Made by a program: the position numbers and the translations under genes
Notes under the pieces: model-generated
Database searches by the model: none
The model's input: the letters and a program-made list of their open reading frames with translations, nothing else
Told to the model about the DNA's origin: nothing
Part shown: positions 11,318 through 17,560 of the stretch, piece after piece
How the letters are laid out: the number at the start of each line of letters is the position of its first letter
How positions within the stretch are numbered: position 1 is the stretch's first letter
Assembly (NCBI RefSeq): GCF_900141765.1
Contig: NZ_FSRK01000001.1
Coordinates: 620,001-684,000, forward strand
Origin: Epilithonimonas zeae
GTDB taxonomy: Bacteria; Bacteroidota; Bacteroidia; Flavobacteriales; Weeksellaceae
DNA: 64,000 bases
Direction of reading: 5' to 3'

Positions 11318-12136
11318 ATGAAAAAATTTATTTTTGGAGTTATCACACTATTTTTTGTGAGCTTCGTATCCGCACAATCTAACATTGATTTGAGTGCACA
11401 GATTGGAAACCTTAACACTGCTACAGTGGATCAAACAGGAATCTTGAACTTCAACGCCTTATTACAAGACGGTAATCGTAACGATGCAGATATAGACCAA
11501 GTAGGATGGGTAAACAGCAATGTTGCTCTAAGTATGGGAAACAGAAACTCTATAGATGTAGACCAATGGGGAATCGGAAACTCTAATACTACCAGCCAAT
11601 ATGGTAATAGAAACTCTGCACAGACTTTACAGATTGGATTATTCAATGAAGTGGATCAATTACAAATCGGTAGAAGAAATGACGCTTCTGCTACCCAATT
11701 AGGAGCTGGGAATTATATCAGTCAATATCAAAATGGTAGAAGAAACAGCGCAACTGCTCTCCAAATTGGTACAGATAACGATATCTGGCAAGACCAAATG
11801 GGTAGAAGAAATGAGGCTTATGCATTTCAACTAGGATCAGATAACTACATCCATCAATTGCAGTCTGGTAATGATAACAGCGCAACTCATCTTCAGTTTG
11901 GTAGCGATAATGTTGCGGATTCTCATCAATATGGTGATGATAACACAACTATGGGGTTGCAAGTTGGAAATAGTAACTATTTGAGCCAATACCAATATGG
12001 CGATGATAATGTTGCTTTGGATGCTCAAATCGGAAATAGCAACTATACAAGCGTAACTCAAACTGGAGATTCTCATTTCCATATGGGATTACAAGTTGGT
12101 AACAGTAACTCGTTGATTGTAAATCAATCTAATTAA
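11318..12136 (+). CDS. csgA: Major curlin-like amyloid subunit (CsgA type), 22 half-repeats
   Basis: Predicted secreted fibre subunit of a curli-type functional amyloid. Residues 1-19 are a signal peptide (FVSA). From Gln28 to residue 269 the protein is an unbroken series of 22 units of exactly 11 residues, each beginning QxGxxN (20 of 22; exceptions SMGNRN and QTGDSH), then QSN to end at 272. E. coli CsgA has five full repeats in 151 residues; this has eleven. Odd units carry Arg (GNRN, GRRN) from unit 3 to 13 and Asp (GNDN, GDDN) from 15 to 19. It is followed by a hairpin and then the csg accessory genes. The symbol is by role; it could equally be a nucleator. Confidence 0.9.
   Translation: MKKFIFGVITLFFVSFVSAQSNIDLSAQIGNLNTATVDQTGILNFNALLQDGNRNDADIDQVGWVNSNVALSMGNRNSIDVDQWGIGNSNTTSQYGNRNSAQTLQIGLFNEVDQLQIGRRNDASATQLGAGNYISQYQNGRRNSATALQIGTDNDIWQDQMGRRNEAYAFQLGSDNYIHQLQSGNDNSATHLQFGSDNVADSHQYGDDNTTMGLQVGNSNYLSQYQYGDDNVALDAQIGNSNYTSVTQTGDSHFHMGLQVGNSNSLIVNQSN
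11399..12124 (+). repeat. 22 tandem 33-bp curlin units
   Basis: The DNA encoding the 11-residue units runs in a strict 33-bp period without insertions or deletions. Units have diverged at synonymous and surface positions, so this is protein-level repetition rather than a recent DNA duplication. Confidence 0.9.
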
Positions 12137-12307: not shown

Positions 12308-12712
12308 ATGAAAAGAATATTTACCATATTGTTTTGTTTGATTCTTGTTTTTTTTTCAATGAAAACTAAATCGCAACAGATTAGCTGGATGCAGATTAAT
12401 AGCAATAATGTTATAGAAATTATTACTAAACAAACTCCAACATTGGAATCATATTCTTCTACATTGCAAATTGGTAATTCTAATAACGCTGAGCTTTATC
12501 TCAATGATAAAAGCAATATTTTATTACAGCAGATTGGAGATTATAACAGACTTTTCTATAATAATTCTTTTACAGAGACAGAAGTTAAAACTTCCATTAT
12601 AACTCAGGGATTTAACAATATCATAGATATCACAGGCAATAACAGTATTTCTGAAAATCTGAAACTAACCGTCAAAGGTGATAATATGATCATTTTTATG
12701 AGAAACTACTAA
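12308..12712 (+). CDS. Small curlin-like protein (CsgB-like minor subunit)
   Basis: A 134-residue secreted protein with signal peptide (residues 1-22, ending TKSQ). It has imperfect curlin-like units: LQIGNSNNAELYL, LLQQIGDYNRLFY, ITQGFNNIIDITGNNS, and a C-terminal stretch ending in the basic, aromatic IIFMRNY. In E. coli the CsgB minor subunit nucleates CsgA polymerisation on the cell surface and its degenerate last repeat anchors it. By analogy this is the likely nucleator. It opens the accessory operon and precedes the csgE-like gene by 11 bp. The unit register is irregular, unlike the major curlin, so the assignment rests partly on context. Confidence 0.7.
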   Translation: MKRIFTILFCLILVFFSMKTKSQQISWMQINSNNVIEIITKQTPTLESYSSTLQIGNSNNAELYLNDKSNILLQQIGDYNRLFYNNSFTETEVKTSIITQGFNNIIDITGNNSISENLKLTVKGDNMIIFMRNY

Positions 12713-12723
12713 AATTATTGAAG

Positions 12724-13455
12724 ATGAAAAATTTATATGTTCTAATGTTTCTTATAGTGATTTGCTTTCCGATTCTAAAAATCAAAGGACAAGATGAGAA
12801 AAAAATTATAGCAAAAATAGAAAGCAAAGATATAGAAGGACAATTGAAACTAAATGCAACAGTTACTAATAATTCCGCCATTTTTCAAGAACTGAATTAT
12901 CTATTGGTTTCTATTAAAAAAGGAAGTAATGGAAATCTTTCTAATAACAAACAAAGTGGCAAGTTCTCTATTAATCCCAATGAAACTAAAAAACTTTCTG
13001 AGATTAGTGTTAATCTAAACGATAAAGATGCGTTAAAAGCTTTCCTGTACATTCGAGATGAACAAACCCAAAAACTCATTGCAAAAGATAGTCTTAATAT
13101 TAATGATGATTCTTTCCGAAAAAAACTCAATAAAGTTGAAGAAACCGAATCATTTGAACTGAATGGACTCACGATAGATGAAACCAAAACCAAAATCGGA
13201 AGAGATTTTTATGATGCTTTCTATCTCCAATACAGCCAAATGCCGGATAAAATTAATAATACAATTGTCATCTCAGAATTGCCTTCCAGAGGAACAAACG
13301 GACAAATTAATATCGTGATTGATGATAAAACAATTTACAGTTTTATGACCAATCCTAATGAGGATTATCAGAAAGAGCAGCTTGCAATGACTTTTCGGTA
13401 TATCAAAGATTATAATTTCAAAAAAAGTCTTATTAAAAACGAATTCTTATTCTAA
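12724..13455 (+). CDS. csgE: CsgE with an N-terminal CsgH/CsgC-like domain
   Basis: Predicted periplasmic curli factor of 243 residues, twice the length of E. coli CsgE. Signal peptide 1-22 (KIKGQ). Residues about 140-243 are recognisably CsgE: ELNGLTIDETKTKIGRDFY and AF, ISELPSRG, NPNEDYQKEQ, matching the G-DFY-AF and ERPS features of the E. coli protein that caps the CsgG pore. Residues about 25-125 look like a beta sandwich resembling CsgH (YLLVSIKKGSNGN, KQSGKFSINPNETKKLS), a family that blocks premature amyloid formation. ATG at 12724 is preferred to TTG at 12718. The fusion reading is inference. Confidence 0.8.
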   Translation: MKNLYVLMFLIVICFPILKIKGQDEKKIIAKIESKDIEGQLKLNATVTNNSAIFQELNYLLVSIKKGSNGNLSNNKQSGKFSINPNETKKLSEISVNLNDKDALKAFLYIRDEQTQKLIAKDSLNINDDSFRKKLNKVEETESFELNGLTIDETKTKIGRDFYDAFYLQYSQMPDKINNTIVISELPSRGTNGQINIVIDDKTIYSFMTNPNEDYQKEQLAMTFRYIKDYNFKKSLIKNEFLF

Positions 13456-13466
13456 AAACACAAAAG

Positions 13467-13877
13467 ATGAAAACTATATTTATTCTTATGTTACTAACTG
13501 TTGGTGGAATCCTTGCGAAATCCCAACAGTTAGTTTATAAACCGATTAATCCCGCATTTGGCGGTGATACTTTTAATTATCAATGGCTTTTGAGTTCGGC
13601 TAATGCACAGAATCCATTTGATGATGAAGATAGTTACAAGAATCTTCTTGACGGTCTTAATTCTATGGATAGTTTTACGGAAAGTCTAAACAGACAAATC
13701 CTTAGTCAATTATCTCAAAAATTATTTGAAGATCAGTTTGGGAATGGACCTTTAACGCCAGGTAATTATATGTTCGGTTCTTTATATCTGCAGGTTACAC
13801 AATCTTCCCAAGGTTTACTAATCAATATTTTGAATACCGATAACGGAGAACAAACAGAAATTGTAATTCCGAAATAA
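13467..13877 (+). CDS. csgF: Curli assembly factor CsgF
   Basis: Secreted through CsgG and placed at the outer mouth of the pore, where it couples the nucleator to the secretion channel. The 136-residue protein has a signal peptide (about 1-19, ending AKSQ) and the diagnostic mature N-terminus: INPAFGGDTFNYQWLLSSA then NAQN, closely matching E. coli NPNFGG and LLNSAQAQN. The helical middle (about 60-90) and beta-rich tail ending QTEIVIPK also fit. Eleven bases separate it from csgE and 18 from csgG. Confidence 0.93.
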   Translation: MKTIFILMLLTVGGILAKSQQLVYKPINPAFGGDTFNYQWLLSSANAQNPFDDEDSYKNLLDGLNSMDSFTESLNRQILSQLSQKLFEDQFGNGPLTPGNYMFGSLYLQVTQSSQGLLINILNTDNGEQTEIVIPK

Positions 13878-13895: not shown

Positions 13896-15257
13896 ATGAA
13901 AACTTATATTAATCCTAAATGGCTTTGTGTTTTCGTACTTTCATTATTTCAAAATTGCAGTACGTTATTCAATTTGCCTATCAATAGTGAAAAATCTTCT
14001 TTAGGTGAAATAACTTCTTATACAACTGAGCTCAAAAATCTTCCTCAACCAAAAGAAAAAATCGTGATAGGAGTTTATAAATTCCGAGATCAGACGGGGC
14101 AATATAAACCTTCGGAAACAGGAAGCAACTGGAGCACAGCAGTTCCTCAAGGAACAACAACGATTCTGATAAAAGCTTTGGAAGACAGCAGATGGTTTTT
14201 ACCAATAGAAAGAGAAAATATCGCGAATCTCCTTAATGAAAGACAAATTATAAGATCTACAAGACAAGAATATCTCAAGGAAACTGATAAATCTACTCAG
14301 ACGTTGCCTCCTTTATTATATGCAGGAATTCTTCTGGAAGGTGGTGTGATTTCTTATGATAGTAATGTTATGACAGGCGGAATTGGAGCTAGATATTTTG
14401 GAATAGGAGCTTCTTCCCAATATCGTCAGGATAGAATTACAATTTATTTAAGAGCTGTTTCTACGCTCAATGGAGAGATTATGAAAACGGTTTACACTTC
14501 CAAAACAATACTTTCTACAAGTGTTAACGGTAATTTCTTTAGATATATTGATCTGGAAAGACTTTTGGAATCTGAAGTTGGTGTAACTCAGAATGAACCA
14601 GTACAGTTAGCTGTTACCGAAGCTATTGAAAAAGCTGTAAAATCATTAATAGTAGAAGGAATAAGAGATGGAATTTGGGGCAAAGCAGTTGAAGATTTTA
14701 CTAAATATAAAAGCTTGATTGATAATTATAATAACGAAGAAACAATTAATTCTGGAAAAGTGATTGGGAATAAATTTCCTAATAATTACAGACAAAAATT
14801 CGCTCTGTTCGCTGATATCGAAGGGCAACAGATCAAAGGAGATTATGTAAATCCAAATTGGAATGTCGGAGGAAAAATGGGATTCAAATACTTTATCAAT
14901 GATCATCTCAATCTGGAGCTGAATGCAAATATTCTCAAGCTTCAGAATGAAAATATATTTACCAGAACTTACATCGTATCGGAAATTAATTTAGAGTTTA
15001 TGATTTTGCCGAAGTATAAATTGACGCCTTTTATCTATGCGGGCGGAGGAACATTGTCTTCCAAAAAGTCAAATTTATACAAAGCTCAAGTAGGTGGTGG
15101 ATTGGAATATCTACTGGATAAAAATTTTGCATTAAGAATTTCCTCTCAATATGATCTTGGTTTCAAAGATACTTGGGATGATTTTGTTAATGGCAAAAGG
15201 AAGGATCAAGCGATTCGAATTGCTTTTGGTGTTAATTTTTATATCGGAAAAAAATAA
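13896..15257 (+). CDS. csgG: Curli secretion pore CsgG with C-terminal barrel-like extension
   Basis: Outer-membrane lipoprotein forming the nonameric curli export channel. Lipidated Cys21 follows SLFQN. Residues about 45-275 align through the length of E. coli CsgG: KIVIGVYKFRDQTGQYKP, STAVPQGTTTILIKALEDSR, LLNERQIIR, GGIGARYFGIGASSQY and FRYIDLERLLESEVG. At the pore constriction the E. coli Asn55-Phe56 pair is Asn-Trp, and Tyr51 is replaced in a one-residue-longer loop (PSETGSNW). About 170 further residues follow, with alternating hydrophobic strands ending FGVNFYIGKK, typical of a small outer-membrane beta-barrel. E. coli CsgG ends at 277. Confidence 0.93.
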   Translation: MKTYINPKWLCVFVLSLFQNCSTLFNLPINSEKSSLGEITSYTTELKNLPQPKEKIVIGVYKFRDQTGQYKPSETGSNWSTAVPQGTTTILIKALEDSRWFLPIERENIANLLNERQIIRSTRQEYLKETDKSTQTLPPLLYAGILLEGGVISYDSNVMTGGIGARYFGIGASSQYRQDRITIYLRAVSTLNGEIMKTVYTSKTILSTSVNGNFFRYIDLERLLESEVGVTQNEPVQLAVTEAIEKAVKSLIVEGIRDGIWGKAVEDFTKYKSLIDNYNNEETINSGKVIGNKFPNNYRQKFALFADIEGQQIKGDYVNPNWNVGGKMGFKYFINDHLNLELNANILKLQNENIFTRTYIVSEINLEFMILPKYKLTPFIYAGGGTLSSKKSNLYKAQVGGGLEYLLDKNFALRISSQYDLGFKDTWDDFVNGKRKDQAIRIAFGVNFYIGKK

Positions 15258-15267
15258 AACGTCTGTC

Positions 15268-16773
15268 ATGAAAACAATTATAAAAAACACAATACTCATC
15301 ATCTTTTCTTTTTTATTGCTTTCTTGTAATGAAGAATTGGTAGAACAAACTCAAACAGGAGTTTTAAAAGGAAAAGTTGTGAAAAGAGGAAGTAATGAAC
15401 CTTTGGCTAATGTCAAAATATTTACAAACCCGACAACAAAAACCGTTTTTAGTGCTAGTGATGGAACATTTGAAATTTCGGATATTCCTATTGGTAACTA
15501 CTCAGTGAAAGCAGAGCTCTCAGGTTATCTTGCAAATTTTACCAGCGTTAATTTTCAAACTCAAAATCAGTTGGTAACGATTGTTTTTGAAATGGAAGAT
15601 GATGAATCTCTCAATTCCTCGCCAACAATTCCGGAGCTCTTGAGTCCAATAGATAACTCAGAAAACCAGCCACTTTCTGTTGAACTAACTTGGAATTCTA
15701 CAGATCCTGATAGTCTGGATGTTCTTAAATACAGATTGATTGTTAAGAATAACCTTAATACAGATGTTCTGGAGGTTAAAGATCTATTAGATAAACATTA
15801 CACTTTGAAAGATCTCAAATTTGGAGTGAGTTATTTTTGGCAAATCGCTGTTTCCGACGATATTCATCCAGAAGTTTTAAGCGCAGTAAGTAAATTTACA
15901 ACCAATACAGTACCTGCAAATAGATTTCATTATGTAAGAAAGCAATCTGGAAATCTTTACATTGTTTCCAGTAATGATACGGGAGATAACTTCCAATTCA
16001 CAGCGCTTGCGAATAATAGTTGGCGACCAAGAAAAAATAACAATGCAGGACTTATTGCTTTTCTAAGAACAGAAGGCGGAGGCACACATATTTTTACAGC
16101 AAAACCTGATGGTTCTGATGTTTTCAAAGTTACTAGTGTTCCTCTTGGGGGATTTAATAGCTATGAATTGGACTTTGCTTGGAAAACTAATGGTAAGGAA
16201 TTGATTTATGCTAATTTTGACAAACTTTACAGAATCAACAAGGATGGCAGCGGACAGGAATTAATTTATACAACTCCGGATGGTAGTTTGATTTCCGAAT
16301 GTGATTGGAGTTACGATGGAAGTAAGATTGCGCTTAAGACTAATGATTTCAATGGTTACAATTCAAAGATCTATATTATAGATATGTTGGGGAATGTTAT
16401 CAAAACAGTTCTTTCTGGAGTTGCTGGAGGAAGTGGAGGATTAGATTTTTCTATTGATGGTAATTATCTGGTTTATACACACGATGTTTCTGGTTATCAA
16501 GATGGTAACTATAGACAATTAGATTCTCATATTTTTATTTATAATTTGATGGATAATACTGTAAGAGATATTTCTACCGAAAGTGAAAAACCAAACGGAA
16601 CCAACGATCTTGATCCAAGATTCTCGCCTAATAATGCTCAGATTATTTTTACTAATACTTCTAACGATGGTATTTCTCAGAGAAATGTAGAAATGGTTGA
16701 TATTAATAATTCCGGAACAGATTTAGAAAGAACTTCGTTGTTCAGTAATGCGGAAATGCCAGATTATGAATGA
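15268..16773 (+). CDS. Surface lipoprotein: carboxypeptidase-regulatory-like, FnIII-like and beta-propeller domains
   Basis: Last gene of the curli operon, 10 bp after csgG. From ATG at 15268 it is 501 residues: lipobox LLLSC (Cys20), a CarboxypepD_reg-like sandwich (about 30-105, GVLKGKVVKRGSNEPLANVKI), an FnIII-like domain (about 115-215, LLSPIDNSENQ, FGVSYFWQIAVSDD), then a TolB/WD40-like beta-propeller (about 220-500) with repeated WKTNGKELIYANF, WSYDGSKIAL, FSIDGNYLVYT and FSPNNAQIIFT. No equivalent exists in the E. coli csg operons. Its position suggests it anchors, decorates or processes the fibre; this is inference. Confidence 0.8.
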   Translation: MKTIIKNTILIIFSFLLLSCNEELVEQTQTGVLKGKVVKRGSNEPLANVKIFTNPTTKTVFSASDGTFEISDIPIGNYSVKAELSGYLANFTSVNFQTQNQLVTIVFEMEDDESLNSSPTIPELLSPIDNSENQPLSVELTWNSTDPDSLDVLKYRLIVKNNLNTDVLEVKDLLDKHYTLKDLKFGVSYFWQIAVSDDIHPEVLSAVSKFTTNTVPANRFHYVRKQSGNLYIVSSNDTGDNFQFTALANNSWRPRKNNNAGLIAFLRTEGGGTHIFTAKPDGSDVFKVTSVPLGGFNSYELDFAWKTNGKELIYANFDKLYRINKDGSGQELIYTTPDGSLISECDWSYDGSKIALKTNDFNGYNSKIYIIDMLGNVIKTVLSGVAGGSGGLDFSIDGNYLVYTHDVSGYQDGNYRQLDSHIFIYNLMDNTVRDISTESEKPNGTNDLDPRFSPNNAQIIFTNTSNDGISQRNVEMVDINNSGTDLERTSLFSNAEMPDYE

Positions 16774-16915: not shown

Positions 16916-17560
16916 TTATTCTATGATGTGATTTTCTATAGCGTATTTTACAACGCCTGCGGAATTTTTCACATTCAGTTTTAGGAGGATTTTTTTGCGA
17001 TGCGTTTCTACTGTATTGATACTAATAAAAAGCTTTTCACAAATTTGTTTGCTACTTAGTCCGTCACAAATCAGTTTTAGAACTTCCATTTCTCTTTTAG
17101 TAAGGCAATCTGCGTGATCGTTTTGGTTGTTCTGCTTGTGACTTATAAAATTTATCATTCTTTCTTTTGCAAAATCACAGATGTAAATTAGATCCGAACT
17201 AAGAGCTTCAATAGATTTCACAAATTCATTATAGCAACAATTGATGTCCAGATAACTTTTGATACCTTTCTCAAAAAGCTTTCTGATTTTTGAGACTTCA
17301 TAAAAATTTCCAATAGTAATAATTTTTATGTCTTTGTATTCGTTAACCAAATTTTCTACTAAAACATACATTTCTGTCAATACAAGAGAGTTAGCACCTA
17401 GCAAAAGAAAATCAGGGGGGCTATTTTTGATACATTCGTAAAGTGTTTCTGTTGAGGTACAAATGCTTATGTTGCTGAAAATATCGCCTTGTGTAAGCAG
17501 TTTGGAGAGTCCTTCTGTATAAAATAGAGGTTCATCAAAAATAATTAGTTTTGGTTTCAT
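16916..17560 (-). CDS. LuxR-type regulator, CsgD-like, with receiver lacking the phospho-Asp
   Basis: A 214-residue response-regulator-like protein. The C-terminal 65 residues are a LuxR helix-turn-helix (LTKREMEVLKLICDGLSSKQI, INTVETHRKKILLKL). The N-terminal 130 residues have a receiver-like pattern, but the strand that should end in the phosphorylated Asp reads PDFLLLGAN, and the usual conserved Lys is absent (GIKSYLDIN). E. coli CsgD, the curli master regulator, also has a divergent receiver with this HTH. It sits convergent to the curli operon, which makes it the obvious local candidate regulator; direct control is inference. Confidence 0.8.
   Translation of the reverse strand: MKPKLIIFDEPLFYTEGLSKLLTQGDIFSNISICTSTETLYECIKNSPPDFLLLGANSLVLTEMYVLVENLVNEYKDIKIITIGNFYEVSKIRKLFEKGIKSYLDINCCYNEFVKSIEALSSDLIYICDFAKERMINFISHKQNNQNDHADCLTKREMEVLKLICDGLSSKQICEKLFISINTVETHRKKILLKLNVKNSAGVVKYAIENHIIE

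Follow-up and report, generated by a model that had tools for sequence, protein, structure and literature searches.

The plus-strand gene at 12724..13455 of the window (the whole 64,000-nucleotide stretch of DNA that was analysed) encodes a 243-residue CsgE protein that carries a CsgH-family domain at its N-terminus. An earlier note, written from the sequence, had pointed to this architecture, and our analysis confirms the observation: the profiles of a pore-cap family (CsgE, PF10627, E 3.6e-13) and of an amyloid-inhibitor family (CsgH, NF041112, E 6.6e-9) both match within a single ORF. We consider it quite likely that the product is a secreted chain in which a CsgH-family amyloid-suppressor domain is joined by a linker to a CsgE cap, with slippage in sister lineages.

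A CsgH-family domain in the CsgE chain

The chain begins with a Sec-type signal peptide (residues 1-22; 12724..12789), called by eye, and the predicted model has a helix at residues 2-18. It is followed by a cysteine-free, seven-stranded domain of the CsgC/CsgH family (residues 27-128; 12802..13107), identified by profile, profile-profile and fold comparison. A linker drawn from the predicted model (residues 129-144; 13108..13155), with pLDDT below 50 at residues 133-144, leads to the CsgE domain (residues 146-230; 13159..13413). All of these features lie on the plus strand, as does a run of seven A's within the linker (13119..13125), at about the same place as the A9-A10 run of the split relatives described below. 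In the window copy, the CsgH and CsgE parts share one frame across this A7 junction. The C-terminal half had been aligned by eye with CsgE, and PF10627 matches it at residues 146-230 with 50.1 bits against a curated cut-off of 25. The predicted C-terminal domain also has the CsgE fold, by comparison with CsgE PDB 2na4. Profile, fold and the neighbouring csgF and csgG genes liken the protein to CsgE of E. coli (PF10627; PDB 2na4), from which it differs by about 105 additional residues, the CsgH-like domain; the NCBIfam CsgE model has 129 positions. The whole-chain model leaves the placement of the CsgH-like domain relative to the CsgE domain unfixed (pTM 0.44).

Profile, profile-profile and fold comparisons all support the kinship of the N-terminal half with CsgC/CsgH that the earlier note had suggested. 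The NCBIfam CsgH model matched residues 31-114 with 35.7 bits (cut-off 35), and the domain alone scored 37.9. The NCBIfam CsgC model gave E 1.5e-5, below its cut-off, and Pfam Tafi-CsgC (PF10610) gave E 3.5e-4 and 21 bits, short of its cut-off of 25. Pfam CsgH (PF21112) had no match to the window protein at E <= 5; among 73 relatives, Tafi-CsgC matched 31 and Pfam CsgH 3. The HMM-HMM comparison proposed in the earlier note returned a significant match: an alignment of 25 chosen N-terminal domains, compared by hhalign with six stand-alone CsgH ORFs from other Bacteroidota, gave 98.7% and E 2.1e-16 over 99 columns. The 40 upstream ORFs of split relatives matched the same stand-alone CsgH alignment at 98.5% and E 3.9e-15, whereas the control, a comparison with 25 other CsgE proteins, reached 0.4%. 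Pfam CsgH recognises all six stand-alone ORFs, with E-values from 2.4e-7 to 2.7e-4, and one of these matches passes the cut-off; the alignment of the six omits a second match in genome G344 and a weak match in an 836-residue frame of genome G019.

A Foldseek search with the domain alone returned CsgH (2n59) and CsgC (2xsk) as the two best PDB matches, with TM-scores by query length of 0.68 and 0.71 for ranks 1 and 2, and the predicted domain has the seven-stranded Ig-like fold of these structures. The structure comparison proposed earlier thus placed CsgH and CsgC on top, but unrelated Ig-like domains of a transglutaminase and a glycoside hydrolase tied with them by Z, so that the fold alone is not decisive. 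These ties, which are of structure alone, and the silence of Pfam CsgH on the window protein would suit a generic Ig-like domain unrelated to CsgC/CsgH. We give that reading a very slight probability, given the NCBIfam CsgH match, the hhalign match to Bacteroidota CsgH and the existence of separate csgH ORFs in curli loci of other Bacteroidota; it is the profile evidence, not the fold, that rules out a generic origin.

The domain resembles Rhodopseudomonas palustris CsgH (2n59) and E. coli CsgC (2xsk) in its seven-stranded Ig-like fold and in its CsgH profile score over the NCBIfam cut-off. Those are free proteins, whereas the window domain is part of a CsgE chain and has no cysteine. In its passages on classification, Taylor et al. 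2016 (PMC4838910) assigns CsgC and CsgH by disulphide pattern, and the window domain has neither the CxC of CsgC nor the distant cysteines of CsgH. Because of this absence we file it as a cysteine-less member of the CsgC/CsgH family: a CsgH-like domain that falls outside CsgH as that paper strictly defines it. Cysteines are scarce among relatives too: at least one occurs in the domain of 2 out of 103 fused and 4 out of 40 split proteins. The same source, where it treats inhibition, describes positive charge as important and a CxC mutant of CsgC as little weakened. The window domain has a pI of 9.13 against 4.19 for its CsgA, more than two units apart, and a domain more basic than its client fits the electrostatic mechanism described there for CsgC/CsgH. 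Strong basicity is not general, however, since the median domain pI of relatives is 6.9 (103 fused) and 6.0 (40 split). We therefore rejected strong positive charge, found in the window, as a mark of CsgH-like activity.

Curli locus and distribution in Bacteroidota

The fusion gene lies in a curli locus of plus-strand genes. Upstream is a 272-residue curlin of the CsgA/CsgB type (11318..12136; PF07012 E 2.6e-28 in 11 stretches; NCBIfam CsgB 2.3e-21 and CsgA 1.2e-19), the presumed client, and then a gene for a small secreted protein (12308..12712) with curlin-like repeats by eye only, for which Pfam and NCBIfam profiles gave no curlin family match. Downstream are csgF (13467..13877; PF10614 E 1.5e-35) and a csgG with an additional C-terminal part (13896..15257; PF03783 E 1e-68 at residues 48-262 of 453).

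Several features of the surrounding genes are recorded here in their own right. Residues of about 300-453 of CsgG weakly resemble a small outer-membrane barrel (OMP_b-brl E 0.0037, below cut-off). Two other loci, L033 and L036, encode CsgG proteins of comparable length (452 and 458 residues), and the NCBIfam CsgG model has 277 positions. After csgG, 15268-16773 encodes a lipoprotein with a TolB/Dpp5-like propeller part; a comparable lipoprotein gene follows csgG in L033 and L036, and the gene may be part of the curli operon in the window's group. On the minus strand, 16916-17560 encodes a LuxR-type response regulator adjoining the curli genes. Its best NCBIfam match is MctR (E 1.8e-23), with the CsgD model at E 3.5e-12, both far below cut-off; it could be a local curli regulator.

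Named relatives of the window protein come from Chryseobacterium sp. (81% identity) and Epilithonimonas lactis (79%). Among 395 sampled genomes of the phylum, 41 have PF10627, 16 of these from the window's order (Flavobacteriales), and 22 have a CsgH profile match. In 15 of the 16 CsgE genomes of the order, the CsgH match falls within the CsgE frame or immediately precedes it. Of the 25 CsgE genomes from outside the order, 6 carry csgH as an ORF of its own, encoded 3.7-6.6 kb downstream of csgE on the same strand; the CsgH profile search found none in the other 19. These stand-alone ORFs (L178-L183, from six genomes) are like the window domain in matching it profile to profile over the whole domain and in sharing a curli locus with csgE; unlike the window fusion, they are separate ORFs 3' of csgE. 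G344 has two neighbouring CsgH matches (G344:C35:73474-74190), and G019, a genome with no CsgE match, has the weak match mentioned above. In the window genome, the single CsgC-profile match at E <= 1 and the single CsgH-profile match at E <= 0.001 are both the fusion ORF, and at these thresholds no second CsgC/CsgH gene was found.

At the protein level, the CsgH profile matched 69 of 73 CsgE proteins chosen for alignment among in-frame proteins, nearly all of the window's order, and at E <= 0.01 none of 25 from elsewhere in the phylum. The alignment of 25 proteins from outside the order, L002 among them, omits L018 and L045, where the start was computed to lie within the ORF. LysM occurs in 8 of these 25 CsgE proteins, and the remainder have no N-terminal extension or an unrecognised one, as if the CsgE N-terminus of Bacteroidota were a slot for accessory domains.

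Split relatives and the conserved A-run

Counted by hand and with the window included, 160 genomes of the order bear CsgE. We read 147 at sequence level; for the remaining 13, tabulated open frames are 243-286 aa. L163 and L170 represent one genome, and L075 ends at a contig edge. Short CsgE frames of 112-129 aa occur in 35 of 72 CsgE-bearing genomes of the genus of G316, presumed to be Flavobacterium, and frames of 114-119 aa in 4 of 74 in the window's family, where one more is interrupted by a contig end.

In 40 of the 147 loci (window included), CsgE is preceded by a CsgH ORF that is read in a different frame. The CsgH profile recognises each of these 40 upstream ORFs, and signal peptides were seen on them by eye. 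The frame offset never varies among the 40; within the overlap, the longest stretch of A's measures 10 nt in 39 loci and 9 in one; the next base is G in 38 and C in 2; and the CsgH-frame stop codon starts 1-31 nt past the run. Every split locus thus combines a homopolymer of at least nine at the end of ORF 1 with an ORF 2 in one fixed other frame. In the earlier note's reading the inhibitor would sit exactly where curlin enters the pore. The split loci widen this picture: with CsgH and CsgE in different frames over an A9-A10 run, these species probably produce the inhibitor in free form as well as at the pore. Ten in-frame relatives carry A9-A11 in the linker too, with A11 in L031. In eight of these a slip either way meets a stop within 17 nt, and in L107 and L162 one slip direction stays open for about 50 nt; here free CsgH would be the lesser product.

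The runs are concentrated in the linker. Of 147 hundred-base linkers (14,700 bp; window omitted, the L163/L170 genome counted twice), 50 contain a run of at least nine A's, against 22 such runs in the remaining 514,828 bp of these loci. Genome-wide, exact A10 runs on both strands number 93 in 5.6 Mb of G316 and 41 in 6.1 Mb of G526. Shared ancestry was allowed for on a CsgE+CsgF tree built by a quick method without bootstrap, with several long branches and omitting L163, L075, L032 and L033. The split state can be explained on it by 5 changes, of which well-supported branches force 3 or more, while shuffled labels need 35; so few changes imply that the state has long been retained. Both parts of the split loci are under purifying selection, with a median dN/dS of 0.09 for CsgE (dS was usable in 224 of 780 pairs, and individual pairs reach 0.72) and 0.12 for CsgH (165 of 780, reaching 0.79).

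From these sequences we think it probable that one gene of the window's order yields a free CsgH-like inhibitor by default and a CsgH-CsgE fusion after slippage at the conserved A9-A10 run. Jointly with this reading, and with the same degree of belief, we suppose that the split/fused trait switched several times and that window-type species have the fusion fixed in one frame. In split lineages, straight reading through A10 would reach the stop codon and release free CsgH, and a shift by one frame would give the fusion. RNA polymerase slippage is described on nine A's in Thermus dnaX and on U's in Shigella mxiE in the sections of Baranov 2005 (PMC1088944) on these genes. The split loci resemble T. 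thermophilus dnaX and mxiE, as presented there, in a long homopolymer with a nearby stop, which would likewise give two products of one gene. For mxiE the same pages have slippage making the longer product, as would be expected for split csgH-csgE. The csg case would differ in its products, a free chaperone and a chaperone-pore-cap fusion, and it is candidate slippage in relatives only, not in the window copy.

We lean towards polymerase slippage over a ribosomal shift, although a -1 shift on A_AAA_AAG is a possibility that we take seriously. That heptamer is in register with the CsgH reading frame in 38 of 40 split loci, with A_AAA_AAA in the other 2, and AAG closes the run in all 37 phase-1 loci, while AAG makes up 72 of 382 lysine codons of the CsgE parts; these counts are not independent, because genomes of one clade share both AAG and the run by descent. 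Against ribosomal shifting as the only cause, a ribosome would need six A's, yet ten are retained, and 2 of the 40 loci lack AAG. Folding after the run gave a mean z of -1.34, with 9 of 40 split loci below -2, when computed without a fused control; with that control, split and fused loci were alike (mean z -1.18 for 40 split, -1.11 for 25 fused), and a conserved downstream hairpin as a frameshift stimulator found no support in this comparison.

It is also conceivable, but unlikely, that no recoding takes place and the ORFs are decayed, separately translated or phase-variable by DNA slippage. Homopolymers are prone to mutation and error, L031 carries its A11 in frame at this very place, and the data are one genome per species. 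Separate translation could begin at an ATG, GTG or TTG present in the CsgE frame before the domain or within its first ten codons in 20 of 40 split loci; the other 20 have none, 29 have no ATG, and CsgE started in this way would presumably be without a signal peptide. This reading sits poorly with a single offset and a near-constant run length over 40 genomes, with the low dN/dS medians and with the csgF-sized ORF found downstream in all 146 tree rows, and phase variation predicts scattered lengths where 39 of 40 runs are A10.

Proposed function and meaning

The likeliest function of the window protein, on its domain content, is a dual one: capping the pore and suppressing amyloid from a single polypeptide. 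It would be a single secreted chain of CsgH-family domain, flexible linker and CsgE domain. E. coli CsgE caps CsgG, as stated in the relevant part of PMC6050966, and by analogy the CsgE half would form a periplasmic cap under CsgG, one that would have to accommodate nine extra domains. The N-terminal domain would hang from the cap and hold acidic curlin chains unfolded just before pore entry, and because each CsgE half brings one on a flexible linker, several inhibitor domains would surround the entrance. It would also replace free CsgC/CsgH, no other such gene having been found in the window genome by the profile searches above. In split species, most of the product would be free CsgH and the slipped share would serve as cap. 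Because two products would come from one slippage site, a single gene would determine how much inhibitor is free relative to the amount tethered at the pore, and slippage would thereby apportion it between the periplasm and the CsgG entrance.

The domain could instead derive from CsgH and no longer suppress amyloid, acting as a spacer or as an arm that lends stability to the CsgE cap or to the cap's contact with CsgG. The lost cysteines and the lack of a general basic charge point that way, and the other N-terminal extensions of Bacteroidota CsgE, with LysM in 8 of 25, suggest that an extension may serve placement, not client binding. We hold this to be rather improbable: the CsgH profile still matches 69 of 73 in-frame and 40 of 40 split proteins, the window domain is basic, and a split CsgH ORF that ends right after the domain and is under purifying selection is hard to explain for a mere spacer.

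Dueholm 2012 (PMC3521004) states that csgC is missing from Bacteroidetes genera and describes csgH for Alphaproteobacteria. The pertinent lines of Taylor 2016 mention a Bacteroidetes CsgH-like sub-family without placing it in CsgE. Among the open-access matches listed we found no description of a CsgH-CsgE fusion or frameshift, a weak negative with subscription papers and preprints outside its scope. Neither appears in the portions consulted of PMC5135000, PMC12822426 and PMC10192328, and the corresponding extracts of a frameshift survey (PMC3711429) and a recoding review (PMC5009743) mention neither curli nor such a fusion or shift.

Out-of-frame csgE genes could pass for pseudogenes, so that curli systems in these bacteria may be misannotated. 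The split loci also offer a candidate cellular gene in which slippage chooses between two chaperone forms. Because the inhibitor domain shares a chain with the pore cap, the site at which CsgC/CsgH acts on curlin becomes testable: in the window arrangement the inhibitor would be unable to leave the pore entrance, and the relatives allow separate, tethered and probably mixed forms of the inhibitor to be compared as they occur in nature.
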